Origin: Heterotrichella gracilis
Taxonomy: Eukaryota; Sar; Xanthophyceae; Tribonematales; Xanthonemataceae
Direction: 5' to 3'
Assembly: GCA_032358255.1 (NCBI GenBank)
Contig: JAULBX010018858.1
Coordinates: forward strand, 19,898-83,897
DNA: 64,000 nucleotides
Shown: one piece after another, positions 8,054 through 50,805 of the stretch
How positions within the stretch are numbered: the stretch's first letter is position 1
Layout of the letters: each line of letters starts with the position of its first letter
The notes under the pieces: generated by a model
What the model was told of the DNA's origin: nothing
The model's input: the letters and a program-made list of their open reading frames with translations, nothing else
Database searches by the model: none
Program-made: the position numbers and the translations under genes

Positions 8054-9790
8054 GCTACAGCATATGTATATTGCGGATATCGGATATCTGCTGGGTTTAG
8101 GCACTGGCCAGTGGCCCGTACCTGTAGTGTCGCACTTGTCTAATTGGAGCGTAGGGTCCGCCGAACGCTTCGCCAGTCAACAGGCTGCCTTAAAGTACTA
8201 TCTATAGGTCTATGCAGAGCTCTCAGAGGTTTATACATTAAGCTAGCTTGCAGGGCTCCTGGTTTGACTTTTGTGACATTTTCCCACAGCCGCTATTGTA
8301 TTCTTAGTCTGTTCATTGCCGCTTTCTACGCATTAATTCGTCCAATGTGGCGAACCCATACCAACCTGGTACCTGGTCACGCACACCATGGCTGTCACAG
8401 TGCCGTGGCAGCCGCCACCTTCCCATGAACATGATCTGCCCATCCCCCGACCCCGTTGGGGATGGTGTGCGGTCCGCATGACACATGACATCGCATTTGT
8501 ATGTAATGCAAAAACCTATCAGAAAGAAAGGCAACAGGCAAGTTGCATGCTCATTTGGCTTTAAGGTAAGTAACCAATGTCATAAATTTGTGGTACTACT
8601 GTTGCAGTCAGTGGTCCCACCCTGAGGAACAGAATTGATAACCCAAAGCACTGGGCCATTGGCAAGCAGCATTGCATACCTGGTGCACGCAACAGTGTAT
8701 AGATGCAACTGGATAGTATCATGTAGATGTTCACCAAAAATATGTGCACTGGCGTACATACAAGCCTAATAGAATAGGTAATGACGGACCTGTGTACGGT
8801 GCAGCCCAGCCTGGATACAAGTACGCAGTTTTGTCCAAACCATGCAGCAAATTGAAAACTTGTGCTACTTTCTGCGAGTACATGCATGTATAAAAGGGAT
8901 TTTAATTAATGCGCAATTGGCATTGCAGCCTGCAGAAGGTCAAGCGCATGATGCGCCCGCCTGCCTCCTGCTGCGTTGGTGGCAGGCAGGCATGCGCATT
9001 GATGCAACAGCATCACCCAGTTATCACTACAATGCTGTCAGCAAGTAACATGCTCAACCAGTGGGTATGCCGACGTGACGTGAAAACCTTTGCAGCAGTC
9101 ACCCATTGCCTGTACCACATGAGACCCCGCATCACAGCGACAGCACCAGCCAACTGCATGCCCTGTCGATGCAATGCAAAGAAAAAAGCCAACGCCAATC
9201 CCAACAAAAACAACACAAATGGTGACTGGACATCACCAAACCTCTCACACTCACGCGGGAATGGGTGGAGACATGCACACCACTGCCATGCAGCGCCCCG
9301 CACGCTCCCCCTCAATGCATTGTCATGAATAAGTGTTATTACCGTCCTGCACTACTCCAGGCAGTGCCCCTCCATGCACATCCCCTCCCAGCTCTCAGCA
9401 TACCCGGTATGCCCTGCAGCGCTAACCCCCTTTCAGTGCACCTGCTTGCGCGCATGAGCCCTTCAGTGTACCTTCCCCCCAGCGGCTGCATGCTGCACCT
9501 GCCCACAGCGCATATTCTGCGCCAGCAGTAGGGTGCAGCTACGCAAAGTAACAGGACCCACTCCACCATCCCACTCCCCTCAGTGCATGCCCGATACAGC
9601 GGTTGCGTGTATGCCCCAAAGCAGGCCCTGTCGCGGCTGCACGCCCTGCCCTGCCTCAGTGGCCCATGCTGGACCCGCCCTTGGTACACCTGGCAGCAGC
9701 TGGGCGCACAACCCCCCTTCACTGCATGCCCTGCTGTGGTAGGCTGGTCCTGCCTCACCACAAGCCCTGCCTCAGTGGCTCACCCCCCCG
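8054..9790. other. Intergenic region between convergent XPC and BAH-PHD genes
   Basis: It lies between two convergent 3' ends, so it should hold both 3' UTRs. No coding frame was recognised. From about 9350 the plus strand has repeated CAGTGCATGCCC-like phrases; the pair nearest 9720 copies the end of the neighbouring coding sequence (see separate entry). Confidence 0.5.
9718..9761 (-). repeat. Copy of the final coding segment of the BAH-PHD gene
   Basis: The stretch resembles 9790-9836, which encodes the last residues and stop codon of the BAH-PHD protein. It shares TGCATGCCCTGC and GTGGTAGGCTGGTCCTG and is offset by about 72 bp. It lies just downstream of the stop codon on the minus strand, so it is a partial tandem duplication of the gene end. 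Confidence 0.7.
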
Positions 9791-11624
9791 TCAGTGCATG
9801 CCCTGCAGTGGTAGGCTGGTCCTGCTCTCCTCCAGGCGCGGCCGCTTGGAGTTGTGCAGCAGCGCGGTGCAGTCGGGGCAGCAGAACGCGTCCATGTGCT
9901 CCACGTCGTGCTGGCTGTAGCCGATGCACTTGGGGTGGTACCTGAGAGGAGAGGGGGTTACATGCTGAGGAGCGGAAGAGGAGAGTTTAGGGTTTGCAGT
10001 TTAGGGTTTAGGACATGAGGAGGCGAGGAGGGGAGCTGTCCATTCTCAAGGTTGGCTTTGCACTTGCAAGTGGCATTGCAGCAAAGCATAGCACATGGGC
10101 TTAACCAAGGGCCAGCCAATGGGGGCTTGAATGGCCAGCTATGCATGGGCCAGGTAGAATGCGCGTCAACGTTTGACAGGGTTCTGTGTGCATGACGCAA
10201 GGAAGATGTGCATAGGGTACTATATTCACAAGGTCCTTTATGCGCTCTGAAGGGTTTCAAGCGTGCATAGAGTTGGCCTGTGGGCACGCACCACTCCTCG
10301 CACTGCTCGCACATGACCATGAACAGATCGGGGTTGTAGGGCATCTCACACACGCAGTACCTGCACACGCACACGGGGACAATCAAGGGGGCATCCAGCT
10401 TGGGGTTGGCATTGTGCAGAGCTGTAAGCAGGACGACACATCATGCAAAACAAGTCAGCAACTGTCGCAAAGGGGTGACAAGGGAGCGTTTACTGCTACT
10501 CCCGAGGGATGGAAGGTATATACACGGTAAAACACATGAAATAGAATATAACGTGAATGCTGAAGAAGTATTGTCAACAACAATACATGTCCACTTACAC
10601 AGGCACCCGGTCTGGCTGGAACTCCTTGGTTGAGGGCTGCGGGGGGAAGAGGGAGGAGGTCAGAGCCAGGGAGATACAAGCATGACACGGAGTGGGGGCA
10701 GGCCATGCGCAGTGGGTGGTCACGTGCAGCCATGTGAGCAGGGGGACCGCATGCATTGGGAGTGGGAAGTCACGCGCCATCACATGCAAGCGGATGCCAT
10801 GGCCATCCACCAGCATGTGCGCGTATGCAAGGCACACATGCGGCCCATGCGTGGCTCCGCCGTGTGGCGCAGCAATAAAGCCCACATGCACAGTATTGTG
10901 GCCGGAGGAAATAGCCACGTGGCACCAGCGGACATGTGGCTGCCAAGGACGTATGTGTCAGACATGTAGTAAGCTCCTCCGCCCACACCCCACCCACCCA
11001 CCTTGTACGTGAAGCGCGAGAAGTAGTCGATCTCTGCCACCTTGTTTAGTTGCTGCAGCATGAGGAGACCATCGTTGTGAGGGGTTCCACTGAGGCCACA
11101 TGGTGTATGCGCCAATGCTTGATCTAAGCTCACCTAGCCGGGCAACTTGTATATGGCCCAATGCGTGCAGAGGCATTGCATGCAGCAACATTCCCGTGGG
11201 TACCGGAGCAAGGGAAGTGTCCTTGACCCTCAAGGATCCAATCCCAACATGCACCTCCCCTCCCCATGCCCACCACCATCACCTCAACCCCTCACCTGGT
11301 AGACCTTGAGATTGTGCACGCGGCACTTCCCGTCTATGGTCCCAGCGTGACACCAGTCCATGTGGTCGCTCTTGAACAGCTCCTTATCGCCGTGGAATTG
11401 CTGCACGCACAGAGGGGGTTTAACCCACAGGGCACGCATCGGGCCCTGCAACTGAACCCAGCAACACAAGACCACACAGGATCACACAGGGGCGCACAGG
11501 AACAGATATACCGCCCCAGGAACATGGGGTCAATGTGGTTCCGCACCATTGAGTACAAGAGGATCACACCGCGAACGAGGTCACAGGCGTGCAGATGTGC
11601 ACTACCATGCAAGCACGTGCACGT

Positions 11625-11658
<34 letters not shown>

Positions 11659-14469: not shown

Positions 14470-17400
14470 ATGGTGCGCCTGCTGCTGGTTGCTGAAAGCG
14501 GCCTGGCCAAGAGCTTCAAAGGCCCTCACGGGGCAGACCTGCTGCTGGGTCCCAGCACCGACGTGGGCAGGGTGGTGTCTGGCAACAACTGCTACCGCCT
14601 GCCTCACAACTGGCTGCAGGTCTCCTCCAGACACTGCAACCTGTTCTACGATGAAGTCAAGGTACGGCTGTGCACAGGATTGCTACATGCATCCAAGCAG
14701 ACAGTGAGAGACATGGTAGAAGATTGCAAGCCTGCACTGCACTGTACAGCTGGTGGCCGTGTCACTGCTGGTGGCTTGAACCAGCAAGGTTTGACCTTGC
14801 TCGTGAGTGGTCATAACCGCCAACCTCAGCAACCCTCTTAGCCTCACCACTACCCTTCTGCCCACCCAGGATGGCTACTTTGTGGAGGATTTCAGCACCA
14901 ACGGCACCTTTCTGAACGGCAAGCGGCTGCCGAAGCGCACCGCCACCCCCCTGGTGCCGGGTGACAAGCTGTGCCTGTGCCCGCCGGTGGCCAACTCTGA
15001 GAACCTGCTCGAGTGAGTGCCGTGGGCTGGCTGGGGACTGTGGATGTTTGTATAGCACCAGGGCAATTAGCATGGGCAGCGCTGCTTGGATCAGGGAACG
15101 GGCGTGCAGCAAGCCTCGTGGAGTTCAAGCGGTTCATATTGGGATTTGTAGTGCCATGGCACTTGTTGAGCAGGCCTCAAAGAGGCGTGCAGTTTGCAGG
15201 CGGGCAAACCCTACACACAGACCTTAAAACAGCCTTCCTGCAGGAGGTGCCTGGTGCCCTCGCTGGACTCAAACCTCGCTCCTAAACCCTACATCCCAAA
15301 CCCTAAACCCTCAACGCTGCTGTGCAGGTACCTGGTGACCAAGGTGGATGACTCCCTCCCCAGGGCGGGCGACTGCCTCACGCCAGGCAAGCGCCAGCTG
15401 GAGGGGCCGGGGGCGCAGGGGGGCGCAGCCAAGCGGGTGCACATGAGGGACGAGGGGGGGGCCAGTGCCTTGTCCGAGTCGGGGGGGGGCGTGTCGTCAA
15501 CCGTGCTGCAGCAGCTGGAGAAGGCAAACAAGGTGGGTAGGAAAAGGTTTAGGGCTAAGAGTTACCAATACGTTACCGCCGCAGGGGAAGGCACATATTG
15601 TAGTTCTTCCAGCACTGCACGGTCCCTTGGGCTGTGTGGCAAATGTGGACGGGCATTCAGCGCTGGGGAAGGGGCTCTGACACTCTTAGGGTACGCCACC
15701 ATGCGCTGCGCCTCCGCCATTGTCGCTCCATCACAGCAAGGAAAACCCGCATTTCTGTCATCCAAAGTACATCCCTGTCCGCACCCACAGCCTACACCCC
15801 TGCCACACACCCCAGCAGTGGCGACTATGCATTTGGCCCTTCTGCTGCACTGAAAACCCCGTGTAAACCCTAAACCCTCGACTACCCTGCCCCAGGACCT
15901 GCGTGCCTGCACCCTAGCGTATGGTGTCGACTGATTTTACCCCCTGTAAGCCCTAAACCCTAGCCTGTCCTGCTCCAGGACCTGTAACCCTTAACCCCCG
16001 GTCTCCCCTGGCCCATGCAGGACCTGCGTGCCAAGGTGGATGAGCAGCGCAACCGCATAGAGGAGGTGGAGGGGCTGGTGGAGCAGGCGCAGGCGGAGAA
16101 GCGCGCGGCGGTGGCGGAGGGACAGGCAAGGGAGGCGGCGGTAAAGGAGGAGGTGGGTGGGAAGGGGAGGGAGGGGTGGGAATGGTGACTGTTAAGTAAC
16201 TAAATTTAAAATGACAGGATAAACTTTATGGTCCCCCTGGGGTGGTATGGGTGTCAACAGGCCAGGAGACCCAGGCTTTGTGCACATTGTGAGTGTGTCC
16301 ATTGTGGAAGACCCTGAAAATAAGGTGTGCAAGTGTGTACTTGCCCGTGCGCCATCGACAGCTACCCAACACTCTGACCTGCCTGGCATGAAATTGCTCT
16401 CATTGCCATGAATTCACCAGCTGCAAGTGAGCCTTATATGAAACATATTCAAATGTTATGAGTACCATGAATACACCCAGACTGCTTGCTGCCTTTTAAG
16501 CATCAAAAGCATTCAAATTGACCAACCTAACAACGTACACCAACCCTCTGTTGCAGCTGTTGGCCAAGACTGTAAAGGTGACGGAATTAGTGGCAGCGCT
16601 GGAACAGGCGGAGGCGGCGTCAGCTACTGTGGCGGAACAGGCAGCGGCAGCGCAGGCTGCTCAGAGCGAGGCGCTTGCTGCTGCTGAGGCTGCAGTTGCG
16701 CAGGCGCAGGAGCTGGAGGTGAGGGGCCGGCTAGGGTTTTAGGGTGAAGTGGCGGGGCAGGTGGGGGGTGGGGGGGGTACCTTATCTTGGCCGCGTGGCA
16801 GGCAACTGCGGCAGAACATGCGTAAACGGGGCAGGCTGTGAAGGGCTAAGGAGGGTTTAGTGGAGGGTTCTTTCCTGCATGCGTGTGGACATGGTTGGAG
16901 GCGGGCAATGTGCGGATCCATGCGTGGTCTTAAGCGCATGCACTGTGCACATGGAAGGATAAAACGCAGGGAACAGAATTAAAACTAAATTATGTAGTAT
17001 AAGGTATACAGCCAGATATGAACCCCTCCGAAACCACTTATCGGTTTCACAGGACACGATGAGAATCCTAGTCTCTATTTCACAGGATGACTTATGACCC
17101 AATGTTCTACAATTCTTATTCCCAATCTATTGAAAAAATCATTTCGCAGGATGCGCTTGCCGGCGCCCAGGTGGCGGCTGCTGATGCACAGGCTGAGGCC
17201 AGGCAGGCCAGCGCTGAGCTGGCGGCACTGACGGGGCAGCTGGCTGAGTCAGCTGCTGACCTACTGGCAGCGCACGGGCGGGTGGAGGAGGCGGGGGCGC
17301 AGCGGAGGGAGGTGGAGGTGCAGCTGGAGGCGCTGCGGGCACAGCTCGAGGTGGGTGGATGGGGGCAAAGCAAATGTGTTTCTGCATCAATATAGATGTA

Positions 17401-19059
17401 AATACTTGTAATAATGCACAAATAATGACTTGTGATTGTTGCTTGCGAATTTTGTCCCCAACTATGTTTTCTGCATCGCCTTGAGTTCTTTGTTTTTCAT
17501 CACAGTTTTTGTATTTACAAGGGAGTACCGCCCGCCTGATTGCCTCCGATTATATTGTTGCTGTGCTATAAAGACTATCATGGATACATAAATAATAATA
17601 ATATTTAAATATCCAATGGAGAATTAATGGGGAAACAATGGGAACTCATCGCAGGAGGGCGCTGCTGCCCACGCAGCGCTCCTGGCACAGAAGCACCACC
17701 TGCAGCAGCAGCTGGAGACCAGCACCACCGCCCTGGCAGCCGCCACCCAGTCCGCCAACACCCTGGGCCAGCAGGTGGAGGAGCGCGAGGGGGCTGTGCG
17801 CGTGCTGCAGCGGAGCAATGAGAGGCTGCGGGAGGAGGTGGCGGGGGTGCGGGAGATGCTTGTGGTGCGGCGCGCGATGATGGCGGGGGTGCGGGCCAAG
17901 GCGGCGGTGGCGGAGGAGAGGCGGGCGGCGCTGGCGGCGGCGCTGGCGGGGGTTATGGGGCTGCAGGTGGGTGGGTGGGGATGTGGTTCATGATGGGCGC
18001 TTGTGGGGGTTTGCTCGTGGACGACTCCCTTTTGTGCCTTGTGATTTTCCTCTTCTGGTACTGGCTTCAATTTACATTTGCTCACTGGGCTGCGAGAGAG
18101 GGGAGGGGGGTGTGGTGCATGCGTGGTACTACCTGGCACTCGGCATTTCTAACTTTTTTCAGGTTCACTGGCAACTGTCGCAACCCACTACCACAATATA
18201 AATCCCTGCGCCCCGCACCCTGGGGCTCCATGTCAAACATCCACCCGCAACGCCGCTCCCGTTCTCACAGGCCAAGATGGATGCCGCCGCCGAGGCGCTA
18301 CTGGATGAGGTGGCGTGCGCGGCGGAGGTGGCGGGGACGCCCTGCGACCCCGATGCCGCGGGCGCAGCCGCCGTCACGCAGCCCGACGCCATGGCGATTG
18401 ATGGCGCGCCCACCGACAGCGGGGCCAATGGCGACGTCGGTGGATCCATGCAGCAGGATAGCGGCGCGGGGCCCGGGGCCCTGATGGCTGCTGGGACAGA
18501 GGTCCAGGAGGGGCTGTTCCCTGCCAGTTACATGTTCTCCCCCCTGGGCCAGCCCACGCAGCTTGTGGCCAATGGTGCCATGCAGTTTGGCGCCCCGGCG
18601 CAGCTGATTGGCGGGGGGTCGGCGGGAGGCGGCGCACAAATTGGCGCCCACACGCAGCTCCTGATTGGCGGTGCGGTTGACTCCCTGCTGGGGGATGGTG
18701 CGGTGGCGGAGGTGGGGTTGGTGGGGGGTGGGAGCCACATGGGGGAGGCAACCCTTGGTGAGGGTATGGCGCTGGCGGAGGGGAGGCAGGGGGATGAGGA
18801 CGAGACGGACGATGAAGGGGAGGGGGTGGGGTCACCTGAGGGGGGTGAGGGGGCGCCAGATGTCACCTTCCCACTGGCTGTGGCTGCGGATGAGGCCACA
18901 CCATTGGCCAGTGGTTGGGAGCACCCAGCCGATGACAGGACGCCTGGTGGTGCGGATGTGGGGGGTGGCGCGCGTGCTGGGGCGGGTGCGCCGCTGGACG
19001 AGGAGGAGGGCAGGGGGTCTGACCACGATGATGATGATGGGGAGGAATACAGCGATTGA
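14470..19059 (+). CDS. FHA-domain, coiled-coil protein with acidic C-terminus
   Basis: Predicted phosphothreonine-binding scaffold; its specific role is unknown. Exons: 14470-14661, 14870-15012, 15328-15532, 16021-16152, 16557-16718, 17150-17350, 17655-17966, 18271-19059. All phases fit, giving 711 residues from an ATG in CCCCATGG context. Residues 1 to about 115 are an FHA domain with the signature pieces GRVVSGNN, VSSRHC and STNGTFLNG, followed by LLEYLVTKVDD, as in FHA domains of DNA-damage proteins. About residues 165-450 are Ala/Glu/Gln-rich heptad-like coiled coil spread over four exons. The last exon encodes a Gly/Ala-rich segment with repeated QLxxGGA-type motifs and a strongly acidic end (DHDDDDGEEYSD). 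The FHA plus long coiled coil suggests a structural or checkpoint protein, but no orthologue was recognised. Part of the last exon is duplicated at 21821-22085. Confidence 0.85.
15896..15990 (+). repeat. Two extra copies of an exon start inside an FHA-gene intron
   Basis: CAGGACCTGCGTGCC, the acceptor and first codons of the exon starting at 16021, recurs nearly intact at 15893 and shortened (CAGGACCTG) at 15976. Each is surrounded by CCCTAAA / CCCTTAACCC tracts. The copies soon reach stop codons. Confidence 0.7.
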
Positions 19060-19655: not shown

Positions 19656-19825
19656 CAGCAACCAGGATATGGAGTTGGGGCAAGACTTGCTTCCAGCATG
19701 TCAGCGCATACTATTAGTCTAATAGTATGCGCTGACATGCCAAGCCACGCCTTTTGTTTGTTTGTTTTTGTATGCGCTGACATGCTGGGAGCAAGTCTTG
19801 TCCCAACTCCATTACCTGGTTGCTG
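19656..19825. mobile_element. Foldback (MITE-like) element with nested palindrome
   Basis: Arms of about 56 bp at 19656-19711 and 19770-19825 are inverted copies with about five mismatches (CAGCAACCAGG... and ...CCTGGTTGCTG). A second perfect hairpin, CATGTCAGCGCATACTATTA with its complement, occupies 19697-19739. There is no coding sequence inside. It is probably a non-autonomous foldback element or a hairpin-RNA source; target-site duplications were not evident. Confidence 0.75.
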
Positions 19826-21820: not shown

Positions 21821-22085
21821 CAGGAGGGGCTGTTCCCTGCCGAACATGTTCTCCTCCCGGGCTAACCCACGCAGCTGGTGGCCAATGGTGCCATGCAGTT
21901 TGGCGCCTCAACGCAGCTGATTGGTGGGGGCACACCATTTGGCGGCCCCACGCAGTTGGTGATGCTTGCCGGTGCAGTTGATTCCCTGCCAGTGGATGGT
22001 GTGGTGGCGGTGGGGCCCCCACGGTGGGAGCCACATGGGGGAGGCAACCGTTGGGAAGGGTATGGCACTGGCGGAGGGGGCCATG
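21821..22085 (+). pseudogene. Broken copy of part of the FHA gene's last exon
   Basis: The segment matches 18504-18785 clearly at the DNA level. It keeps the phrases EGLFPA, PTQLVANGAMQFGA and QLIGGG, then drifts out of frame through small deletions. It lacks the rest of the gene. Together with the second BTB copy downstream it repeats the gene order FHA end then BTB, so it marks a segmental duplication. Confidence 0.85.
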
Positions 22086-22539: not shown

Positions 22540-23061
22540 TTAACGGGAGCCTGGGTGGCCAAGCAACTGGTGTATTTTCTCCTGCGCACTCCATAATCTG
22601 CTTGCCAAATTATTGTATGGGTGTGCCCGAGGGTAAGCAGCCCGTTCAGAATCTGCTAACTTCTCAAAAGCTTGCGCCAAAATGAAAGAGCACAGAGTGT
22701 GGTGCCTTTTCCAATTGCGCCACAGACAGCGTTAGGTATTCCAAGTCAGATGGTTCCTGATTCACAATGTAATAAATGCATTCAGCCATCAGGTCTGCAA
22801 TCTTGAATCGCTCTGCCACCACAATCCAGTCCAAACCCACTGCCCTTTCCATGCACAGCTGCCCGCGCTGTCCAAGAGGGGTTGGCCACCAACGTTTGCG
22901 GCTGTTGCTGTCTTTATGTAGTCAATTGTGCTCTCCTCCTCAAGATACGTATGTAGCAACCTCTGGAAAGGCTTCACATCCAGGTACTCTGCTGCAGTCA
23001 GCAGCTCTGTTGCCGCAGATGGGGAGGACATCTGCACAGCAGTCAGGAATTTCAGGGTCTT

Positions 23062-23325
23062 AGGGCACAAGCACCATGCATGGTCACAGCAAGGATTTAA
23101 AAGCAGCAGCAGAGATATGTACCTGATCAAGTACATTTCATTTTTAAGCCATGCTACACAGCCCATGATGCATGCAGGTCTTGGAATCTAATCTCAGGGC
23201 ACAAGCACCATGCATGGTCGCAGCAAGGATCTAATGCAGAATCTGATCAATTGAGAAAGTACATTATTGTATGAAGCCATGCTACACAGTCTATGACGCA
23301 TGCAGCTTCTGGAATCAAAGTATGC
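23062..23325. repeat. Two-copy tandem repeat, period about 134 bp
   Basis: AGGGCACAAGCACCATGCAT starts both units (23062 and 23196). Both units continue with a shared GCCATGCTACACAG segment and a following ATGCATGCAG/ACGCATGCAG. The repeat lies inside the intron of BTB copy 2. Confidence 0.75.
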
Positions 23326-23478
23326 ATTCTGACAGCGGCACCAATCATAGAGTGCAAACCCAGTGCACTGTATTCAAGACAGCAGATTCGTTGGGCCTTG
23401 CTGGAGTACCACAGTGACTGACCTGTCTATTAAGGGAGTGGACCAAAGCCTCGTTATCCATAGCCTGGTACATGTACT

Positions 23479-32691: not shown

Positions 32692-35600
32692 TCAGCAGAA
32701 CCAGAAGGACATCTCATTCCAGTGGCTCAGCGCGCACAGCGCAGGCAAGCCATACATAAGCTGGGGCTTGGCCTCCGCAATCGCATGCCGATTATGGCTG
32801 GAAAGCTCCACGCTGCGCCGGTCCCTGGTCCACGCCCCATCCCCAATTGTGACCTCCCGTAGGCCCCGCAGCAGGGAGAGGTGGCAAATGTCGTCCGCCT
32901 CCAGGGCCCCAAATGCGGTGAATGTGAGGGAGCGCAGCGCGGCGGGGGCAAAATGCTTGGCCAGCGCCTGCAGGTGCTCCCCTGATAGGCAGAGCGAAGG
33001 GGAGAGGAGGTAGAGGGAGGTGAGGGTGGTGGGGAGGGCGGCGATGGTGCCCAATTCCACGCATGCCATGTCGGCCACGTGGCGGATCTGGCCCAAATCC
33101 TGGGTCCCTGACTGGCCCAGCTGCTTTTTGAAGCTTTTTGAAATGCGCAGGGACCGCAGCCGGCCCAGGGATGCCAGTGCCCCCAGCCCCGCATCGCTCA
33201 CCGCCCGCACGTCCAGCGTCAGGCACTCGAGCTTGCCCTGACGGGCCGCCAGCTGGCATAGGGTGGCATCCGTCAGCGCACTCAGCTGCCCCCTCTTCCC
33301 TGTCAGCCGCAGCGCCGCCAGGTGGCGCAAGGGGGACACCACCGCTTCGACAAACGCATCGGTGAGGTAGGTGGCCCCGGTGAGGGTTAGGGAGGTGAGG
33401 TTGGCCAGGGCGGGGGTGGGGGATTGGGCTTGGAGCTCAAGGGAGGCGGCCCAGTCGGATTCCAGGGAGAGTTGGACTAGGTTGGTGTAGGGGGAGAAGT
33501 TGAAGGTGTTGGGGCGCTCCCGGGGGCAGCCCCATTGGGGGACCTGCATGGGAGAGGGGAGGGAGGGTTTGTGGAGGGTTTAGAGAAAAGAGCTGGGTGG
33601 GATCGTGGGGAACAGGCGTGAGGCGCGTGCACCAGGGCTTCGACAATGTACTTTCTGTGTGCGCTTGCGTGGGTGGTGTATGGTAATCATGGTGGGAGTG
33701 GGTGTGAAAACACGTACTGTGTATGAAAAACACATACACAATGAACGCTACAACGGCATGTCAAAGCAACAGATCAACCCCTCACAACCTCAACAAGGTG
33801 ATCAATAGACCTATGTTTGAGGGTGGCACGAAGACATGACCTTCCCCCCCCACCCCTTCCTCCACTCCCCCCTACCCCCCGCCCTCACCTCAGTCGCGTG
33901 GTCCCCCACCAGGTACCTCCCCACCAGCGCCAGCCCCCGAACCACCTTGGGCGCATCCCCGCAGTGCGCAACCAGCTTGTGGGCGCCATACTTCTCCCCC
34001 ACCACCTCCACCCGCACGTCCCTCCTCGCCAGGTGGCACCAGGCAGTGATGAGGGCGGCTGTGGGCTGCAGGTTGTGCTCCACGCGCTTGTTCACCACGC
34101 AGGTCAGGGAGGACAGCGAAGGAAGCTGCGGGATGGCGCAAAAATAATGTGAGAATATTATAAAGAAAAAGCATAAAAGTACATAAAAGAGATCGGGCGA
34201 GTTTTACAAAGACGAAATAATATTAGGCACAAAGATACACAGTGGCTGTGGGCTGTAGATTGTGCTCCACGTGCTTGTTCACCACGCAGGCCATAAAGGA
34301 CAGTGCGCCCTAACCCTAAACCCTCACCTGGGGTATCGCCAGCAGCAGCTGGTCAAAACCGCGATGTCCCCTACTACCGCCCAAAACCATAGACCCTAAA
34401 CCCTAAGCCCTCACCTGGGATATCTCCAGCAGCAGCTGGTCAAACACCGCAATGTCCCCCACAATACACCCCAGGTGGCTCAGGCCCCCAAGGGAGTGAA
34501 GGGTAGAGAAACACAGCGGGGAAACAGGGAGCCCAAAAGCCAATCGCAGCTCCCGCAGATGGGTCAAGCATCCCAGGGATGTGAGGGCTGCGTCGCTGAG
34601 CATGTGGATGACTCTGTTTTCGTATATGAGGAGGTGCGGGTCCTCCCCCTGGCGGTGCAGGCCCAGTTCCAGGCGAGTCAGGCTGACACCTGGTTGAGCA
34701 AAGCAGATAAGTAAATTAATAAAGAATTTTGATGAAATAGTAAAAAGTCAACCAGAAACAATGGGAATATATAAATACCTAAATGATTGATAAATCGACC
34801 AAGACACCGATTGATAATGCATACAATATGTAACCCAACAAATGGAGACAAATAACAAACAAAGCGCCTCATCTCCAGGGCATTGGTGGAGGAACACAGT
34901 GCGAGCGCCAGAACGGTAAGGCACGGCACCCACCTGGCAGCGCCTCCAGCATGGCCTCCAGCTGGCGCATGGGGCTGCGCCACATGTGGCTATCCACATA
35001 CAGCTCAAGGTGCGACAAACGCCGCATGGCGCCAAAGGCAGCCTGGATGTCGGGAACCACAATATGATTAAGCTCACAGGGGAAGTCGAGGATGAGCTTT
35101 GAAAGTTGCGGGGCGATGCGGGCTGCAGTGACCAGGCGGGCAAAGTTGGCTGCTGCAAAGTGCGTGTGGGAGGGGTCTGGGGCGTAGCGGGTGGTGGGGG
35201 TGGCGGCTGAGGAGGGCGCCAGGCGGAGGGAGGTGAGGGAGGTGCAGGCGGAGAGGGCTGCAAGGGGAGGGGAGGAGTGGGTGGGTGGGGGGTGTGAGCG
35301 CAGGGAAGGGGGCCAGAGGTGGTGCCGGAAGTGGGGATGGTGGCTGTGACGGTGGGTGATGGGTGATGGTATGTGTACATTCAAGAGCATTGGGGAAGTG
35401 CGATAGGATGGAACAATGCTGGATAACACGTGCAGGGATGCAGGGTGACAGAATAACAGAATAATGATGAAGCCCGCCGCAGTCCGTAGACCATGTGAGC
35501 ATAGGGCCACCCTCTTTGATGAGTCGCATGGCGCATTCCAGGCTCATATGAAGCAGGAGCTGTGGGCACGCACGCACGATGCAGGGTAGCACGTGCATGC

Positions 35601-39027: not shown

Positions 39028-42000
39028 GTCTATGCGCAGGATAGCCCCCACCTCCCAGCAGCAGCAGTACCAGGAACGGAATGCAGGGTGAGTGCGGTGC
39101 TTAGGCCATATCTGAAAAGTCTAAACCCTAAACCCTAAACCCTAAAGAGTGGTTTGCCCTGGGACTGTGCACAACTGTCCCTGGTGCTCTCACGGGTTGT
39201 TGGTTGCCCGCCTGTGCTTGCGCCAGCTGTCATGGGATCATGGTGTTTAGGGTTTAGGGTGGACAAGCTGTAAGATGGGGTCGGTATCACAGGGGCCAAA
39301 TCTGCATGGCCTCAAGTGCTTCTCATCCACGCCTAAGTGCGCTGCTTAGGCCCCCCTGCTTGCCCACCACACGCACAGCCCGCATGCACAGGATTGTGCA
39401 CTGTCACATCCACATACACCCCCACGTGCACAGCCAAACACCCACACGCAATCCCCACATGCGCAGGCACACGCACCCCTCAAGTGCTCAACCACGCGCA
39501 CCTTCATGCACCTGTCAAATCTGGCAACGTGCTCAACCATGTGCACCACCACATGTGAAGAAAAGCTTGCCTTTCACCCACACCCACACCCATGTGCACG
39601 TGGCCCTGCAGGGGGGCTGGTGGATCCTCCCCAGGGGGTGCCAGCCAGGTGAGCCAAGGGGAGCAGAGGCGCAAGCAGCGATACGGGGAGGTGGCGCAGT
39701 CCTACAGGGCGCCACATCAGCGGGGGGCGCCAGGTGGCAGGGGTGGGGGCAGGGGAGGAGGCAGGGGCGGCGGCAGGGGGGGCGCAAGGGAGGGAGGCAG
39801 AGAAGGGGCCAGGGAGGGGGCCAGGAGGTGGGAGGATGCAGGCAGCGGGGACAGGCCACGCGGCGTACCACCCCCCAGGTAAAACCCTACACCCTAAACC
39901 CCAAACCCTTAAGTATACTGCTCATGAGTGAAAACTTGAAGGCCAAGCGGCGTACTGCTTACCAGGTGAAAGCGCCTGCATCTGTTGACCTGTACCCTTG
40001 TAGGGTGTTACACCCCAGCCACCATACCCATGTCACCTCCCCTGCAATGCCCTGACTTCCTACATTCGTACTGCGCACCCAAACCCAAACAACTCCCTGC
40101 CATCCCCTGTGCCCCCAGGGAGGTAGTCCCCATCCTGCACCAGGGCGATGGCCTCAGCGCCACCTCCTTCCATCGCGCATGTGGGCCAAAAAATAAACCC
40201 TAAACCCTAAACTCTAAGCTTCTCCTGTTCCTAGGGAGGTGGTCCCCATCCTAAGCCAGGGCGATGGCCCCAGCGCCACTTTCTTCACATTGCGCATGTA
40301 GGCCAAAAAAAAACCCTAAATCTAAACCCTAAACTCGTGCGTCCCCAAGGAAGGTGGTACCAAGTCTGCGCCAAAGGGTTGGCCTCATCACCTCCTCCTC
40401 CCCGTGCACGTGGGCCAAAATACAACCCTAACCGTAAACCCTAAACCCTGACACCTGCGTCCCCAGGGAGGTGGTCCCCATCCTGCGCCAGGGCGACGGC
40501 CCCAGCGCCACCTTTTTCACGTCGCGCACCTGGGCCAAGCTGGGGCTGGCGCCACCCATGCAGCAGGCATTGGAAAACGTGGGCGCAGCCAGGCCCAGCC
40601 ACATACAGGTGGGTGGTGCATGGTGCGTGGTGGTGTGCGGGAGGGGTGCGTAATACAAGTAGGATAAAAGAGTGCAGTAATGGGACGTGGTAGCCTTGGT
40701 GGAATGGAGTCTAACCCTGAGGCTGTCCTTGACCTGCAACTTTCAGAGCAAGCAGTGGAGTGTTGCAGACATCAAGTTGGGCCGCCATTCGGCAAACTTT
40801 ACAGGCGCAATGGCAAGCGGCACCCTCGTACAGCAAGTTTGGCCCATGCGCAGCTAACTTACCGACCTGCAACTTTTCAGCAAGCAGTGGAGTATTGCAG
40901 ACAGTGGAGTATTGCAGACACCAAGTTGGGCCCCCATTCGGATAACTATTTTGTACCCAGGCGCTGTTATTGCTTAAAAATTATGTTTTTGTTCCTGCAG
41001 TGAATGGATTTTTACAATATGATTCAACACTTTGTTTATTACCTGGCTTTTTTTTGTATATTGCTTTATTTTGCAACCCCTCCCAGGCGCTTGCCTGCGA
41101 CCTCCTCTCCAGCCGCCCCCAGCATGCCATCATGGCGAGCCACGCAGGCAGCGGCACTAAACCCTAAACCCTAAACCCTAAAACCCTAAACCCTAAACCC
41201 TGGCCTACCCAGAAACCCTACTACCAAAAGGAGTCCCCTTTTTTTTTAATTTGTTTACTGTGTACTTGCTGCAGGCGCTTGCCTATGACCTCCTCTCCTC
41301 CCGCCCCCAGCACGCCATCGTTGCCGACCACGCAGGCAGCGGCAAGACCCTGGCCTACCTCATCCCGCTGGTGGAGGGGCTGTGGCGCGAGGAGCAGGAG
41401 GCGGGCAGGAAGATGACCCAGCCATACAGGCCCAGGGCGGTGGTGGTGGCGCCCACGTCAGGTGAGGGGGTGTAGGTTGGAAGCGACAACGTGCCGGGCT
41501 TGCACTTTTTGTCTTTACTGAAGAACCCTCACAAATAAAATAAAACCAGGAACTGTGTACTTGTGGTATTGATAGAAATGGAGCTTGTTGACCCTATCCT
41601 AAACCCTGAAACCCTAATGGGATTTGAGCCCACTGACCCAAGGCCAAACTCTACATTCTACACCCTCAGGGGTGTACATTAAACCTTATATGTACATGTG
41701 TACTGAATCTGATACCATGTGGCCCAAGCATCTCGTCTCACTTGTTTACCCTCCTTACCCCCCACCCCACCCACCACCACCACCCCACCCCTCGCAGAGC
41801 TGTGCAGCCAGGTAGTCCGCGTGGCGCGCGCCCTCTCCACCACCCTCCCCTTCCGCTCCTACGCCCTCACGGGGGGCCACAAGTGGGGGCCACAGAAGGA
41901 GGCACTGGAGTACGGCGTCGACCTGCTGGTGGCGACACCTGGCAGGCTGGCGGAGCACATGAAGGCGGGCAGTGTGGACCTGGGGGGTTGCGGGGTGGTG

Positions 42001-44595
42001 GTGCTGGACGAGGTGGATGTGCTGCTGGATGAGTGGGGGGCAATGGTGGCGGGTTGTGAGGTGGTGGTGCCGACCGAGGTGGGTGTGGCGCTGGGGTGTG
42101 GGGGTGGTGGGCTGTCAACGTAGATGTAGTTGGTGTGCTGTGGCTGTGTGGTTGTGGATTGTGCATGGCCTGTGGGTGGACTGTGGGGGATAGAGAGTAC
42201 ATGTGGGGATGGTCTGGATCAGGGCAGGGCGTGCCACTTGTAGTACCATCCCCTTCCCATCCACACCCCACCCTCAGCCTGAGGAGATGATTCCCTTGGT
42301 CCATGCACTTTGTGTAACCACCCCCACACACCCCACCGCGCACGCTCCCTCACCCCAACCCCCACCCCCCCACCAGGTGATGCGGCCGCCTTTGCAGAGC
42401 AGGTGGCGCCCATCCGCGCCGCCGCCCCCCCCACCACCCGCTTTGTGTTTGTCACCGCCACCCTGCCGGAGCACATGTACCACCAGCTGCAGGAGGAGTA
42501 TGCGGGCCTGGGGGCGGCAATGGGGCCCGGCCTGCACTGCACGGCGCCAGGTGGGTGGTGGGGGATGGTGGTGGTGGTGAGTGGGGTGCGGTGTGCGGGG
42601 GCCGAATTATGCAGGATGTACATGTTGCCTACCCCTTAGCAAGCGGTGTTGTCCTGGAACAAGTCAGTTCACTCCAAGATTACTCCAAGAAATATCCCAG
42701 CTATTTTCTTCTGCCTCCTCAAGTGTCGCCAAGGAGCGCCGCAGCTAAACATCATATCACCTTTCCCAAGCGTGGATTTAGGGTTTTCAAACCTAAACCC
42801 TAAACACCCACGCCCTCTGAGTGTCCTCACACAGAAAATTTGCAACACACTAACCCCTCCCCTGATCTTCTTTAAAGGCGTGGAGGAGCAGCTGATCGAC
42901 TGCAGCGGCGGCGAGGACATCAACGAAGACACCGGTTTTGAGCGCAAGTCCATCGCCCTCATAGCCTGCCTGGAGGAGCACAAGGCGCAGCGCAGCATCG
43001 TGTTCTGCAACAAGATCGAGGCCTGCCGCAAGGTGGAAAACCTGCTGCGGAGGAAGTACGAGGACGGGGGGGTGGAGGTGCTGGCGTACCACGCGGCCAT
43101 CAGGGATGAGCTGCGGAAGGAGAATCTGCAGGTGGGTGGGTGGGTGCGGGGGGTTGGCGGGGGGTTGGGGGGGGAATGATAAGACAATATCATTAGGGAT
43201 GAGCTGACGCAGGAGAATCTGCAGGTGGTGGGTGGTTTGGAGATGGTGGTGTGTGTGTGTGGAGGATATTACCACAAGGGATGAGCTGAGGAACGAGAAC
43301 CTGCAGGTGGGTGTCGGGGCGGGTGGTGTGGTGCTTGTCCTCTGTGAATGGGGGCTGCACGTTTGGCTGTACTGCTGAGGCTATTTCATGGCGCCACAAA
43401 GGGGGGTCTCGCCAGGGTTGACTCGAGTACCTATGCACGTATGGCTTGCAAACCCTTGATAGGGCTCATGCCATTACTAAGCCCTAAAATTTCGCGTGCC
43501 CACTGTCGTTATCTGGTGTGTCTCCGCGTCTGCCACCACCCACAGCCAGAAATTCCACCTTGCCATCCCCCACCTGACACGCACATCCACCCTCCCTCTC
43601 CCCCCCCCCGCAGAACTTCCTGCGCCCCCCTAACAGCCCCAACAGCCCCCGCATGGTGCTGGTGTGCACAGACAGGGCCTCAAGGGGGGTGGACAGCGCG
43701 TGGGTGGAGCATGTGGTGCTGTTTGATTTCCCCCGGGACCCCAGCGAGTATGTGCGGAGGGTGGGGAGGACGGCCAGGGGCGCGGGCGGCAGGGGGGTGG
43801 TGTCGGTGCTGGTGCTGGGGAGGCAGGTGGGTGGCGGGTGGCGGGGAGGGGGGGGCGATTTGTGTGCATGGCGGTTTAGGCCATGCATGTGCTGCAGCAT
43901 GTGTTTTGGTTGTGTGGAACCCACTGTGCATGAGGCGCCCGCCACTCAAATTGACAAGCAGGCAGCCTGTCCTTAAACGGGCGCGTTGGGTACAAGGGTT
44001 TACCTAGGGTCTTGACCAGCGTCCGCAGGTCCGCCTGGCCACCCTGTAGGGTTATACAGGGTATTGCTTTGTTTATTTAGGGTACTGCTAGGGTTTTGAC
44101 CAGGGTTTGTGCAGCAGGTTTGCCTGGACATCCTTGACAGCAACCAGAAGGCCTATGGTTACCTCGGCTGCCATAATGGTTTTCAAGGGTATCACTAGAG
44201 TTTTGACCAGGGTTTTCTGCTGCAGGTTTTCCTTGCCAAGGACATCCTTGACCGCAACCAGAAGGCCTAGGCTTTTCCTAGGCTATCATCAGGGTTCCCT
44301 AAGGATATCGTTAGGGTTTTGACCAGGGTTTCTGCTGCAGGTTCGCCTTGCCAAGGACATCCTTGACCGCAACCAGAAGGGCCTGCCCATACACAAGGTA
44401 CCCCTGGCCCTGCCCAGGAGTGAGGTGCTGTATGCCGGGGATGGGAGCCAGCGGGATCGTGATGGGCGGGAGCCCAGTGGGACCCCGGTGGGGGGGGTGG
44501 CTGGGGTGGGGAGGGGGGTGGGGGTTCTGGGTGGGGAGGATGAGGAGGATGAGTATGGGGTGGGGAGTGGGGATGATGAGGAGGACTGGGATTGA
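39028..44595 (+). CDS. DEAD-box RNA helicase, chloroplast RH50-like
   Basis: ATP-dependent RNA helicase; the plant RH50 relative acts in chloroplast rRNA maturation. Exons: 39028-39087, 39612-39878, 40467-40608, 41275-41461, 41798-42055, 42377-42550, 42878-43131, 43614-43826, 44341-44595 (stop TGA). All are phase-consistent, giving about 601 residues from the in-exon ATG at 39032. Residues 20-108 are RGG-rich. Core motifs follow: [12 protein letters not shown] and RPSHIQ (Q-motif region), ADHAGSGKT (I), PTSELCSQV (Ia), ATPGRL (Ib), VLDEVDVLL (II, DEVD), FVTATLP (III, TAT for SAT), [16 protein letters not shown] (IV), [11 protein letters not shown] (V), [11 protein letters not shown] (VI). [18 protein letters not shown] and [18 protein letters not shown] are the features that point to RH50. 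The tail is acidic. No transit peptide was found, so upstream exons may be missing. TGTAA at 44742 is a candidate polyadenylation signal. Confidence 0.93.
39121..39146. repeat. Interstitial telomere-like tract (CCCTAAA)
   Basis: More than three perfect CCCTAAA heptamers, inside the intron after the first assigned helicase exon. Confidence 0.9.
40119..40466 (+). repeat. Three non-functional copies of a helicase exon start, period about 116 bp
   Basis: Units begin at about 40119, 40235 and 40351; the real exon begins at 40467. Each unit starts with an acceptor-like CAG/TAG/AAG and GGAGGTGGTCCCCATCCTG-like sequence. It runs about 70-80 bases through CCAGCGCCAC to TGGGCCAA, then breaks into AAACCCTAAACCCTAAAC and a short C-rich stretch before the next unit. 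The TAA triplets in the CCCTAAA part close the reading frame of each copy. Confidence 0.88.
40735..40945 (+). repeat. Two-copy tandem repeat in a helicase intron
   Basis: GACCTGCAACTTT...CAAGCAGTGGAGT.TTGCAGACA.CAAGTTGGG..CCATTCGG occurs at about 40731-40795 and again at about 40865-40945. In the second copy a 16-base piece (CAGTGGAGTATTGCAGA) is itself doubled. Confidence 0.75.
41087..41157 (+). repeat. Truncated copy of the Walker A exon start
   Basis: With its CAG acceptor, it copies the first 71 bases of the exon starting at 41275, 188 bp upstream. It encodes [20 protein letters not shown], then GSG. It breaks inside the Walker A motif and continues directly into a seven-unit CCCTAAA tract whose first TAA ends the frame. 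Splicing to it would give a helicase lacking the ATP-binding lysine. Confidence 0.88.
41156..41202. repeat. Longest interstitial telomere-like tract (CCCTAAA)n
   Basis: Six to seven CCCTAAA heptamers, one with an extra A, fused to the broken exon copy before it. Confidence 0.92.
43175..43306 (+). repeat. Two copies of an exon end plus donor in a helicase intron
   Basis: GGGATGAGCTG..GGAGAATCTGCAGGTGG, the end of the exon stopping at 43131 with its donor, recurs ending at 43224 and at 43306 (offsets about 93 and 82). The copies keep the splice donor but carry substitutions. No telomere-like tract separates these copies. Confidence 0.85.
44029..44290 (+). repeat. Three degraded copies of the last helicase exon start
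   Basis: Acceptor-like GCAG followed by GTT..CCTTGCCAAGGACATCC, the start of the exon at 44341, recurs at 44226 (best), 44118 and, weakly, 44029. GGGTTTTGACCAGGGTTT precedes the copies, and TTTAGGG-related words lie between them. Each copy that reaches that far stops after AACCAGAAGG. Confidence 0.82.
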
Positions 44596-45284: not shown

Positions 45285-47559
<2,275 letters not shown>

Positions 47560-48379: not shown

Positions 48380-50805
48380 TCACCAGCCCCTGCCCCACTC
48401 AAACACTACGTCGCTGCGCAGGATGTACTTCACCCCCCCCTCCACCTCCCTCCCCTCGTGCTCCATGCACTGGTCACCGTGCAAGTGAAGCAGGGCGCAG
48501 CCTGTGCGAGGTGAAACAGCCGCCACCTGGCGCCCACGGGGCCCTGCAGAAGAGGACAGGGGTGTTTAACAAGAGACAATATTATGCGAAATATTCAAGT
48601 GATAAAAAGAAGATGAGCTGCATATTTCTCCCCAAACATGTACATGCTCCCCCCAGTCCCCCACCCACCAGCCGCCAGAAAGTGTGCACTGTTACAGTGG
48701 CAATTACAGCAGCTACCCAGCATCATTTCCCTCCCTCCTCACCATAGAACACCGTCTCCCCCCCTTTGAGCCCCTCTTCCTCCCCCGATAGATACACCAG
48801 TAGGGTGTAGCGGGTGCACTGGCTGGGTCCAAGGGGGACGCTCTCGTCGATGTGGCGCCCAAAGCGCTGGCCCTGGTCGTACCTGTCGTGTTTAGGGTTC
48901 AGTAAGTGTAATGAATTGGCAAGTGATGCTTCGCGTTTGCAGGCAATGGATTCAAAAGGGATGATTGGGAGTGTGCGCCCATTCGCTTGGGAGGGGTGGG
49001 AAAAAGGGCAGTGGGGGATAGCGAGTGCGGCTGGAAGCCCAGGGGCACGCTCTCGTCGATGTTGAGGCCAAAACAATACCAGGGTCATACCTAACCCCTG
49101 ACCCCTAAACCCTAAACCCACGCCCTATACGCGGATTGGCAAACAACGGCCTCCAGAAGCAATAAAATCTTCAGATGCTGCTGTGCATGAGCGCCGCACC
49201 TGTGGCTGTGTATGTGCACATTCAAGACATGCGCTCCCCTGCCTAGATAGGACACAAAGCCCTATAAAAGAATTTCCCCTCCCCATGGCTCACCTGTAAA
49301 AGCGTATGTTAGGGTTGAGCCCCACCGCCCTGCCACTCCCTAGCCCCATCCCCTGAAACACAGCGGCCAAGCCACCACGCACCCACAGCGCAGAGGCCAG
49401 CGCCTGCAAGATGTGGAGGTAGAGGCAGACGGAACAAGCGTAATATAACAATGTCAGGATGATGATCTTAATTTTAATACTGGTTTTCCAACATCTTATT
49501 ACAGGCGTTCTTGCAAGCCGGGTGAATCAAACACCTCCAACAGTCTTGTGAGCCCAAGTTGGCTCCCTGGATTCAACTGTCAAAATATATCTTGTAATAA
49601 TCCTGCAACTACCCTTGCTTAGGAGAGGATAGGTGCCGACCAGCATGTGTCATACCGCCGATGCAACCCAAAAACCCTGACCAAAACCCAAAGGAAACTC
49701 ACCTCATCCTGCACCGCCACTCGAAAGTTGTCCCGATAGGCTTCGCCGTATTTAGGCCCCCTTGACCCCTGGTGGGCAAACCCTAGGGCTTCTGCTGCTG
49801 CAACAAACGCGCGCGCCTCAGGCTGAGTCAGCACACCAGGCACCTGCGGCCAAGAGGGGAGTTACACCAACACAGAAGCAATAGGTGACTATAATTGCAA
49901 TAAACGCAATAAGTTATTGTCAGCAATACCTAATATAATCAGAATCTCATTGGAGGAGATTGTCACCCAGCACAGGGAGTGGGCACACAAGGAGAATGCC
50001 ATACAACAGGGCATGCTCAAAAGACGCAAGTGCAGCAGAACGCATGTGGCCCATCACGCACGCATGGCACATGCCCCACCGAATGTGCCTCCATACATCG
50101 GTTCCTTGGCAACGTGTAATCCAGCATTCCGCCAGATGAATGCTCATGAAACGCAGGGCAGCCCAAGTACATGCTTTGCACCCACCATGAATGGCGCAAA
50201 TCAGATTTAGATCTAATTTGCAATTAGCTTAATTCTGGACATGATAGCACTCCACCTTCTTGCCTCCAGCAGTCGCTACACAAGTAACATCCGAGGACCT
50301 GTGGTACCAGGGAATTGACTACCCTAAGCTAGGGTTTAGGGTCTGCTCACCTCGAACAGTTGGTTCCCCTGGAGCTGGACTGCCGCCAGGCCCTTCTTGG
50401 GTGAGATTTGAGGCAGGGAGGGGGCTGCACAGCAGACATTGAAGCCATTCACATGCTCCATGGGGGTGTATGTGCACATATATATAGCCCGTGGGCGAAA
50501 TATGTACTCTATATTGAGTATCACGTGCGTGCACAGGCACGGTGCATTGTGTGTGCACATGCATGGTGCCGCTCCGCTTCAGCTGCGCTGTGGGCGCTCC
50601 CTCCGTATTGGGTGGGTGCATTTGCATGGCACTGGTGGGTGCAGCTGCAGGGTTCAGTGTTGTCCATGGCCGGATCTACTGGGTGTAGATGCATGGCGCC
50701 AGTAGTTTCTGACTCAGAACCCGAAGTCCCACCTGCGCCTTGCCGCTGTTGCGGCCCTGCGGGCGCCGCCTGCTGGGTGGGCGCTGTGCGGTTCTTGGGC
50801 GCCAT
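48380..50805 (-). CDS. 2-oxoglutarate / Fe(II)-dependent oxygenase (prolyl-hydroxylase-like)
   Basis: Dioxygenase that uses 2-oxoglutarate, O2 and Fe(II); its substrate is unknown. Exons (minus strand): 50805-50733, 50424-50351, 49843-49703, 49403-49294, 48882-48743, 48543-48380 (stop TGA). All phases close, giving 233 residues. The N-terminus is short and basic/Gln-rich (MAPKNRTAPTQQAAP). QLFEVPGVLTQPEARAFVAA starts the core. YRDNFRVAVQDEALASALW and LNPNIRFYRYDQGQRFGRHI follow. The Fe ligands are His143-x-Asp145 in HIDESVP and probably His208 in MEHEG; Arg222 in KYILRSD should bind the 2-oxoglutarate carboxylate. YTLLVYLSGEEEGLKGGETV is the typical strand between the ligands. No signal peptide is visible, so it is probably cytosolic or nuclear. 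A copy of the start of the fifth exon sits in the preceding intron. Confidence 0.92.
49027..49115 (-). repeat. Copy of an exon start plus telomere-like tract in the oxygenase gene
   Basis: GGGGCACGCTCTCGTCGATG and, further on, CAGGGTCATACCT match the start of the exon at 48882 (GGGGGACGCTCTCGTCGATG, CTGGTCGTACCT), offset by about 208 bp. The acceptor side of the copy runs straight into CCCTAAACCCTAAACCC. The copied Fe-ligand codons are partly lost. Confidence 0.8.

Follow-up and report, generated by a model that had tools for sequence, protein, structure and literature searches.

Why do introns in this stretch of DNA (64,000 nucleotides in full, called here the window) carry near-copies of the edges of adjoining exons, and what connects these copies with the heptamer CCCTAAA/TTTAGGG? 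We describe the copies in the window, follow them into other parts of the genome, and then consider which processes may have formed them.

Exon-Edge Copies in the Window

Between 9.7 and 49.1 kb, eight places carry local direct near-copies of exon edges, some of the copy edges being by-eye readings. The preliminary description placed them in seven genes; its eight places stand, while the gene models holding them number five, and one DEAD-box helicase gene holds four places.

9706..9825, minus strand: near-copies 9706-9753 and 9778-9825, spacing 72
15865..16032, plus strand: 3' splice site and exon start, copied twice, FHA-domain gene; units at 15866/15949/16021; splice sites by eye
34057..34303, minus strand: exon start region 34057-34116, copied at 34244-34303; spacing 187
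34308..34462, minus strand: 34394-34462 is an exon end with its donor and TTTAGGG, copied in the intron at 34308-34374 (spacing 86); one place with the preceding line
40106..40538, plus strand: four-unit array, three copies and the true exon (from 40467); units at 40106/40222/40343/40454; splice sites by eye
41084..41344, plus strand: copy of a 3' splice site and exon start (41084-41156), spacing 188; units at 41084/41272
41157..41200, plus strand: CCCTAAA tract within the exon copy, read directly
43098..43310, plus strand: exon end with donor (43098-43139) and intronic copies 43191-43228 and 43273-43310; tract absent
44079..44390, plus strand: copies of a 3' splice site and exon start, 44079-44160 and 44186-44275, true exon ~44341; units at 44079/44186/44302
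48798..49116, minus strand: exon start 48798-48863, copied at 49009-49072 (spacing 211)
23058..23319, no strand: non-coding tandem duplication of 134 bp, gap 0, outside the exon-edge class

In our own reading, a clear CCCTAAA/TTTAGGG tract adjoins five of the eight places (15.9, 34.3, 40.1-40.5, 41.2, and 48.9-49.1 kb). The tract is degenerate at 44.1-44.3 kb, where every unit has TTTAGGG-like sequence and the spacing is ~107-115, and there is none at the copies at 9.7 and 43.1-43.3 kb. What is copied at 9.7 kb is the last part of a BAH/PHD-protein coding sequence and the 3' flank behind it, with no exon-intron edge; the intron at 43098..43310 is supported by a protein alignment spanning the splice. 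The two 15.9-kb copies have exon starts at ~15896 and ~15979, the true one being at 16021, and CCCTAAACCCT sits within the pyrimidine stretch of both. Near 34 kb, the copy of the exon start shares its intron with the copy of the exon end. Each copy in the 40-kb array consists of a 3' splice site and ~85 nt of exon; the splice sites are 115-117 bp apart and successive units are parted by a CCCTAAA tract. The parent of the 41084-41156 copy is exon 41272-41344, which bears the helicase GSGKT motif, and past the tract the exon sequence picks up again at the word ACCCT, a striking case of possible register with the repeat. Both 48-kb units lie close to a heptamer tract (48891-48897 and 49103-49116); the gene model there is without protein support, and its quick translation has seven stops, possibly due to a framing slip. 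Of two paralogous gene pieces, one holds the 134-bp duplication and the other has no match to it.

Recurrence outside the Window

The main sample comprised 244 kb, the window and 18 arbitrarily placed 10-kb stretches; gene-based counts exclude L014 (all N) and L009 (bacterial-looking). A search for the RuBisCO large subunit was negative. The joint-strand gene model was self-trained, has 111 of its 526 exons shorter than 30 nt, and sometimes labels copies as exons. The recurrence noted earlier extends past the window: 35 of 261 introns in the 244 kb contain a copy of an adjoining exon's edge, against 0.3% for mismatched introns. A search of 20 loci for matches within 1 kb found 116 in direct and 5 in inverted orientation; three dinucleotide shuffles per locus gave means of 0.0 for both. 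Copies respect the side of the exon from which they come: among 144 exons, exon ends were copied 12 times into the following intron and never into the preceding one, and exon starts 11 times into the preceding intron and twice into the following one. A further set of loci (L001-L008 and L034-L036) was subjected to the copy scan only and stands outside these statistics; copies were seen at five of eight tract-centred loci (L003-L006 and L008) and in L035 and L036, and were absent from L034.

The homology ends between -3 and +15 nt from the splice site in 11/18 donor-type and 7/17 acceptor-type pairs (three strandless pairs of the 38 being excluded), compared with 15% and 7.5%, respectively, when tandem units are placed at random in simulation. 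A gap above 20 nt parts the copies in 29/35 exon-edge pairs, versus 1% in simulation. Simple tandem duplication with random breakpoints is ruled out by simulation for most exon-edge pairs. The copies differ by 3-32% in sequence and lie within predicted introns that keep their outer splice sites.

Association with the Telomere Repeat

Contigs C70 and C140 start with CCCTAAA arrays, so the interstitial unit is the telomere repeat of this organism. (CCCTAAA)4 matches the genome 209 times if overlapping matches are counted, and its reversed control never does. Interstitial tracts are short, dispersed and non-terminal, numbering 101 in 264 kb (a length that includes 10 kb of N and 10 kb of bacterial-looking DNA), against 1-12 for each of the other 19 heptamers of equal composition. 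Of 131 located tracts, 111 are intronic, 19 intergenic and 1 exonic, which gives 0.84, 0.45 and 0.015 tracts per kb, respectively, in a model that distinguishes introns, intergenic DNA and exons. Genome-wide, CCCTAAACC has the donor word CAGGTG within 25 nt upstream in 746 cases and its reverse complement CACCTG in 381, overlapping heptamers being counted more than once; near donor words both tract orientations are elevated (746 vs 381 and 981 vs 658). The acceptor-side count (1096 vs 1008) is uninformative because its control word overlaps the acceptor consensus.

Tracts occur in 21/35 copy-bearing introns and in 55/226 others (p=4e-5), and outside the window in 17/30 and 35/172. After matching for intron length, 8-mers gave 21 observed against 12.0 +- 2.8 expected (4 of 2000 draws as high), and 9-mers 15 against 9.9 +- 2.5 (71 of 2000). 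The association is strongest at the junctions between copies when decayed telomere signal is scored sensitively: 19/53 junctions are telomeric, compared with 8/60 outer flanks and 29/600 random non-coding pieces (junction versus flank, Mann-Whitney p=0.0003, Fisher p=0.007). With exact words, the difference between exon-edge junctions and outer flanks is not significant, whether for 8-mers (13/34 vs 10/38, p=0.32) or for 9-mers (10/34 vs 6/38, p=0.26).

The enrichment proposed in the preliminary description is thus found both in introns and at junctions, and since it is found, the copies cannot be said to be no commoner near CCCTAAA than tract density alone would give. That most copies are fused to such tracts is true at five of the eight places and does not extend to the wider sample, where the sensitive test scored 14/30 exon-edge junctions as telomeric and 16/30 as lacking the signal. 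As for telomerase adding the repeats, the orientation expected from extension of one chosen end does not appear. Under priming, the left copy would adjoin TTTAGGG and the right copy CCCTAAA; among 25 junction tracts there was no orientation bias, G-tracts being nearer the left copy in 9 cases and the right in 6, and C-tracts in 6 and 4.

Spacing and Filler

The copied length varies from 25 to more than 100 nt, and the spacing of copies has two preferred values, ~104 and ~198 bp, which are common to whole-unit and partial pairs; filler-free adjacent tandem duplications of matching lengths also exist. At fixed spacing, copied length and gap are anticorrelated (r = -0.97 in 18 pairs, -0.95 in 14 pairs), which follows partly from grouping by spacing. 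The ~200-bp class is not a pair of 104-bp steps that has lost its middle copy: for 14/14 pairs with spacings of 186-217 bp, the second-best match has a score of 13-19, and the null 95th percentile is 21. Clear quantisation of intron lengths was not seen by eye.

Filler homology exceeds the 95th percentile of the null in 10/34 exon-anchored pairs and does not do so in 24/34, although simple fill-in would be expected to leave contiguous homologous units. Comparison of the 48 fillers of the sample all-against-all gave 27 matching pairs across loci, of which 23 contain CCCTAA/TTAGGG; of the other four, three look by eye like degenerate telomere sequence and one is poly-C. A local template for the fillers was rejected, with direct matches to nearby sequence (score at least 36) in 7/48 (null 0.0%) and inverted ones in 1/48 (null 2.6%).

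Fate of the Copies

Pooled over 38 pairs, substitutions at codon positions 1/2/3 number 53/46/95, with 60 indel columns in 1693 sites and a copy divergence of 8-9% at positions 1 and 2. The 29 pairs that the gene model calls exonic on both sides were excluded from this total; they gave 86/88/111. Because the substitution pattern is neutral, the copies look dead rather than like alternative exons, and the earlier idea that they could feed alternative splicing is, judged from the pooled pattern, probably to be abandoned in favour of dead DNA. Individual copies may still be used, since in the WD-repeat-like pair L011 3064/3277 the exon part differs at 6/101 sites, five of them at codon position 3. 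By eye, 12/18 donor-type copies have GT at the mapped boundary.

Proposed Mechanism and Alternatives

We suggest, with confidence evenly poised between acceptance and rejection, that the copies are scars of recurrent, error-prone DNA break repair at exon-intron borders. The direct orientation, location, spacing and neutral drift of the copies and the junction excess of telomeric filler are observed; the events behind them may have been the following. The break would be staggered: one of its ends would lie at the intron or a little way into it, the other within the exon. It would be filled in by a CST/Pol-alpha-type activity and rejoined by end joining, giving a direct-orientation duplicate of the exon edge. 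Telomere-type repeats, presumably supplied by telomerase, would often join the open ends before ligation and stay as filler, the added length totalling ~104 or 198 bp. The copy would fall within the intron, be removed by splicing and then drift. Staggered-break duplication as it is known does not predict two preferred lengths. A ruler-based and splice-site-directed duplication, in which breaks return to exon borders at nucleosome-scale steps of ~104/198 bp and are healed by telomerase and a fill-in partner, seems to us rather unlikely; if it were true, telomere maintenance enzymes would, away from chromosome ends, keep lengthening and rewriting the introns of this lineage.

It is possible, though doubtful, that two independent neutral processes, tandem duplications of ~104/198 bp and telomere-repeat insertions, are both frequent, and that selection clears exons so that both pile up in shared fragile introns and mimic coupling. 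Selection predicts exons nearly free of tracts (1/131), and the filler-free duplications of equal lengths, the weak excess of exact words at junctions and the missing orientation signature agree with this; however, the intron-level association holds after length matching, and at higher sensitivity junctions exceed their own non-coding flanks (19/53 vs 8/60). Whole units could instead have been duplicated in tandem by slippage or unequal exchange, the intron half being scrambled later while the exon half stays recognisable through its conserved parent. We consider this improbable: whole-unit and partial pairs do have the same two spacings, length and gap are tightly anticorrelated (partly a grouping effect) and intron-half homology is kept in 10/34 pairs, but at 8-9% divergence simulated intron halves stay alignable, and 24/34 pairs show no homology above the null 95th percentile.

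Insertion of a transposon or introner into exon borders, accompanied by long duplications of the target, is very improbable. Algae have introners, which favour nucleosome linkers according to the available portion of one study (PMC9860276), and the total inserted length is quantised; yet the 48 fillers have in common only telomere-like words and one poly-C run, and the supposed target duplication would range from 25 to more than 100 nt. That the copies are functional, whether as alternative ends of exons, as splice-site decoys or as poison exons kept by selection, is scarcely credible, since the counts 53/46/95 and the 60 indel columns fit a neutral copy facing a constrained parent, against which stand the GT of the 12/18 donor-type copies and the third-position changes of the L011 pair. 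An assembly artefact is almost certainly the wrong explanation: the 68.5-Mb genome is a draft assembly of 903 contigs, one or more of which look bacterial, but copies differ by 3-32% and intact multi-exon proteins are readable through the loci.

If the break-repair reading is true, introns here grow by readable repair, whose scars keep the template (the exon edge), often the filler, and a preferred length. The way in which introns gain sequence then becomes testable, as does telomerase/CST action at internal breaks outside mammals, and the bimodal spacing is a hint at the geometry of breaks in chromatin. There is also a warning for gene finders, as our own model labelled as exons some dead exon ends that carry splice-site words.

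Comparison with Known Systems

The preliminary description has neither the two-step spacing ruler of ~104 and ~198 bp, which is new here, nor the tendency of homology to stop at splice sites in excess of what random breakpoints would give, and our literature searches found no description of the copies' density, splice-site location and ruler. Both halves of the process have precedent in the accessible portions of the reports, namely CST–Pol-alpha duplications and interstitial telomeric repeats (ITS) at breaks.

The short ITS of primates, rodents and horse are likewise short internal runs of telomere repeat, inserted at breaks and sometimes with target duplication (PMC7215372, PMC2246262). In the parts of these papers available to us, a minority of insertions has direct flank duplication, ascribed to staggered breaks, ITS ends are sometimes in register with the repeat, and the ITS share in human introns agrees with random insertion (PMC2246262, PMC7215372). 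Duplication is exceptional there (6/130 rodent and 4/25 primate loci; PMC2246262, PMC7215372), whereas our tracts are concentrated near splice sites and accompany exon-edge copies of preferred spacing.

Plant telo boxes have the word AAACCCTA in common with our tracts, and their authors propose telomerase action at free 3' ends (PMC3022908). These boxes are enriched in 5' UTRs, not in introns overall, and the consulted part of that paper describes no exon-edge copies (PMC3022908).

Introners resemble our case as intron-building insertions with green algae among their hosts and a preference for nucleosome linkers, but, in the portion of the source at hand, they form families of similar elements (PMC9860276); among our 48 fillers, many similar copies at unrelated loci were not found, only telomere-like words being in common. 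Intron gain by tandem duplication also involves within-gene tandem duplication, which, as far as the available text of PMC4974935 goes, creates an intron; our copies sit inside predicted, pre-existing introns and do not supply both splice sites of a new one.

The CST-Pol alpha complex fills in 3' overhangs, leaving small tandem duplications at breaks, and CST fills in telomeric 3' ends too, according to the seen part of PMC8355091. Those duplications and ours are both short, direct and local (here 116 direct against 5 inverted). Dependence on CST, 53BP1/Shieldin and Ku is a further mark of that class. Theirs are described there as tandem without such filler (PMC8355091), while most of our exon-edge copies are parted by unrelated or telomeric filler, and lengths here are bimodal.

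Sample and gene models

The window (bases 19898-83897 of contig 190; whole genome 68.5 Mb, 903 contigs) was analysed together with 20 arbitrarily picked 10-kb stretches of the same genome. Two of these, L014, which reads N, and the bacterial-looking L009, were counted within the 264-kb tract census, and L009 was also included in the self-comparison for near-copies and in the first tract-in-gap test; gene-based counts cover 244 kb, i.e. the window and 18 stretches, without L014 and L009. L009 (G000:C1:20001-30000) belongs to an 894-kb contig, has 36% G+C in the stretch read and carries dense intronless ORFs that look Bacteroidetes-like; this contig is probably a bacterial contaminant of the assembly.

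A self-trained two-strand model, which sometimes called copies as exons, predicted 47 genes and 526 exons. The splice consensus is CAG/GTGNG (donor) and TGCAG/G (acceptor), which together with the CCCTAAA-type telomere may point to a green alga. All 4 of the 4 spliced window proteins submitted matched known domains (BAH/PHD, FHA, DEAD and zinc dehydrogenase); two other minus-strand gene models contained 12 and 7 stops in a quick translation.

Exon-edge copies and their spacing

The near-copies are genuine: when 20 loci (254 kb) were each compared with themselves, 116 direct and 5 inverted ones were detected within 1 kb, the mean in dinucleotide shuffles of the same loci being 0.0. When every exon edge was compared with its own adjoining intron (threshold score 36), a partial copy of the exon end (donor-type) was detected in 17 of 261 introns, of the exon start (acceptor-type) in 21, and either in 35, while identical edges compared with other introns scored at least 36 in 0.3%. 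Of 144 exons longer than 100 nt, 12 have an exon-end and 11 an exon-start copy in the intron on the correct side, versus 0 and 2 on the wrong side. The eight places of the preliminary description were confirmed, although they fall into five gene models rather than seven genes. The product of the gene holding four of them is a DEAD-box helicase (Pfam matches: DEAD 1.3e-24, Helicase_C 1.3e-19); it aligns to a solved helicase continuously across the intron bearing the 43.1-43.3-kb copies, which are therefore intronic.

Homology ends no more than 3 nt before or 15 nt beyond the splice site in 11/18 donor-type and 7/17 acceptor-type pairs of copy and parent, compared with 15% and 7.5% of random tandem units simulated at the observed divergence. 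The gap exceeds 20 nt in 29/35 observed pairs versus 1% of such simulated units. Filler homology surpasses the null's 95th percentile in 10 of 34 exon-anchored pairs, as whole-unit duplication predicts, and lies below it in the other 24. Among the compared fillers, the only similarity between loci was in telomere-like words and a single poly-C run.

Repeated 11-mers lie most often 100-120 or 180-220 bp apart; distances of 140-180 bp form a trough between these maxima, and counts drop beyond 240 bp. When 82 pair spacings were fitted with two components, these centred on 104 and 198 bp (BIC 844.8 versus 883.7 for one component), and the component means are similar for whole-unit and partial pairs. 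Copied length and gap are almost perfectly inversely correlated (r -0.97 and -0.95), which is partly a consequence of grouping by spacing. Near-neighbour spacings read by hand from the first entries of six genome-wide pattern lists, with some loci present twice, fell at 80-120 bp in 23 of 42 cases.

The exon parts of 38 exon-copy pairs, aligned over 1693 sites, differ 53/46/95 times at codon positions 1/2/3 and include 60 indel columns, a pattern that points to a drifting copy beside a constrained parent. In L011, another sampled stretch, a WD-repeat-like exon and its intron are duplicated whole (3064-3514, 213 bp, pair 3064/3277). Since 5 of the 6 exon differences of this pair are at codon position 3 and the intron parts are more diverged by eye, both copies may be in use, as an exception to drift.

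Repeats were also recorded in the window:
40119, 40235, 40350, 40467: four consecutive 3' splice-site copies with an almost exact period of 115-117 bp; the three copies each have a GT-bearing word at the position of the real exon's CTGGG (by eye)
18540-18783 / 21853-22079 and 20296-20871 / 22909-23923: paralogous gene pieces, 80-93% alike; one piece is accompanied by an adjacent tandem duplication of 134 bp of non-coding DNA, with no match in the other
19656-19825: inverted repeat, 56 nt, 93% complementary, loop 58 nt
27207-27733, 27774, 29611, 29943: coding repeats; predicted protein with recurring acidic blocks (QPVSVSDQFDWTHGSDSDE)

Association with telomere repeats

CCCTAAA was taken as the telomere repeat because two contigs start with CCCTAAA arrays. 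Its exact 10-mers form 101 tracts in 264 kb, versus 1-12 for each of the other 19 heptamers of equal composition. By 9-mers, 111 tracts are located in introns, 19 in intergenic regions and 1 in exons; the first and last fifths of introns hold 36/110 and 32/110 (expected 22 each).

An 8-mer tract occurs in 21/35 copy-bearing introns versus 55/226 others (odds ratio 4.7, p=4e-5; outside the window alone, 17/30 versus 35/172). The length-matched expectation for the 21 is 12.0 ± 2.8, reached in 4/2000 draws; the excess is weaker with 9-mers (15 versus 9.9 ± 2.5, 71/2000 draws as high). In a cruder first test, 25/85 gaps between copies contained an 8-mer tract, compared with 9.7 ± 2.7 for random positions and with 14 and 12 for the two flanks, parts of which are coding. 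Tracts make up 6.0% of non-coding bases in junctions (the sequence between two copies), 2.9% in outer flanks and 1.7% in introns. A sensitive score for decayed repeats classed as telomeric 19/53 junctions, 8/60 outer non-coding flanks and 29/600 random non-coding pieces (five permuted heptamers, 4-8 of 53 junctions); therefore the telomeric signal is strongest between the copies. The earlier claim that copies are associated with CCCTAAA is supported by the intron-level excess and the sensitive junction score, but the junction-versus-flank contrast is non-significant at exact-word level for exon-edge pairs, which weighs against a coupled model, in which one repair event adds the duplication and the filler together.

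Proposed mechanism and known systems

Repair of staggered breaks would produce direct, short-range copies that drift neutrally, with telomeric filler between them, and their confinement to introns would represent selection. It does not account for the two preferred lengths, for homology stopping at splice sites or for the length-matched unrelated filler; a nucleosome-scale break geometry behind the spacing is our guess.

Among the matches listed from the PMC literature, beyond which lie many subscription papers, no title or abstract opening mentions copies of exon edges accompanied by telomere filler, or a comparable spacing preference. CST-Pol alpha fill-in of 3' overhangs yields small tandem duplications (PMC8355091), and at mammalian breaks telomere repeats are inserted, with the flank duplicated in some cases (PMC7215372, PMC2246262). 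Both halves of the staggered-break model have already been published for other systems.
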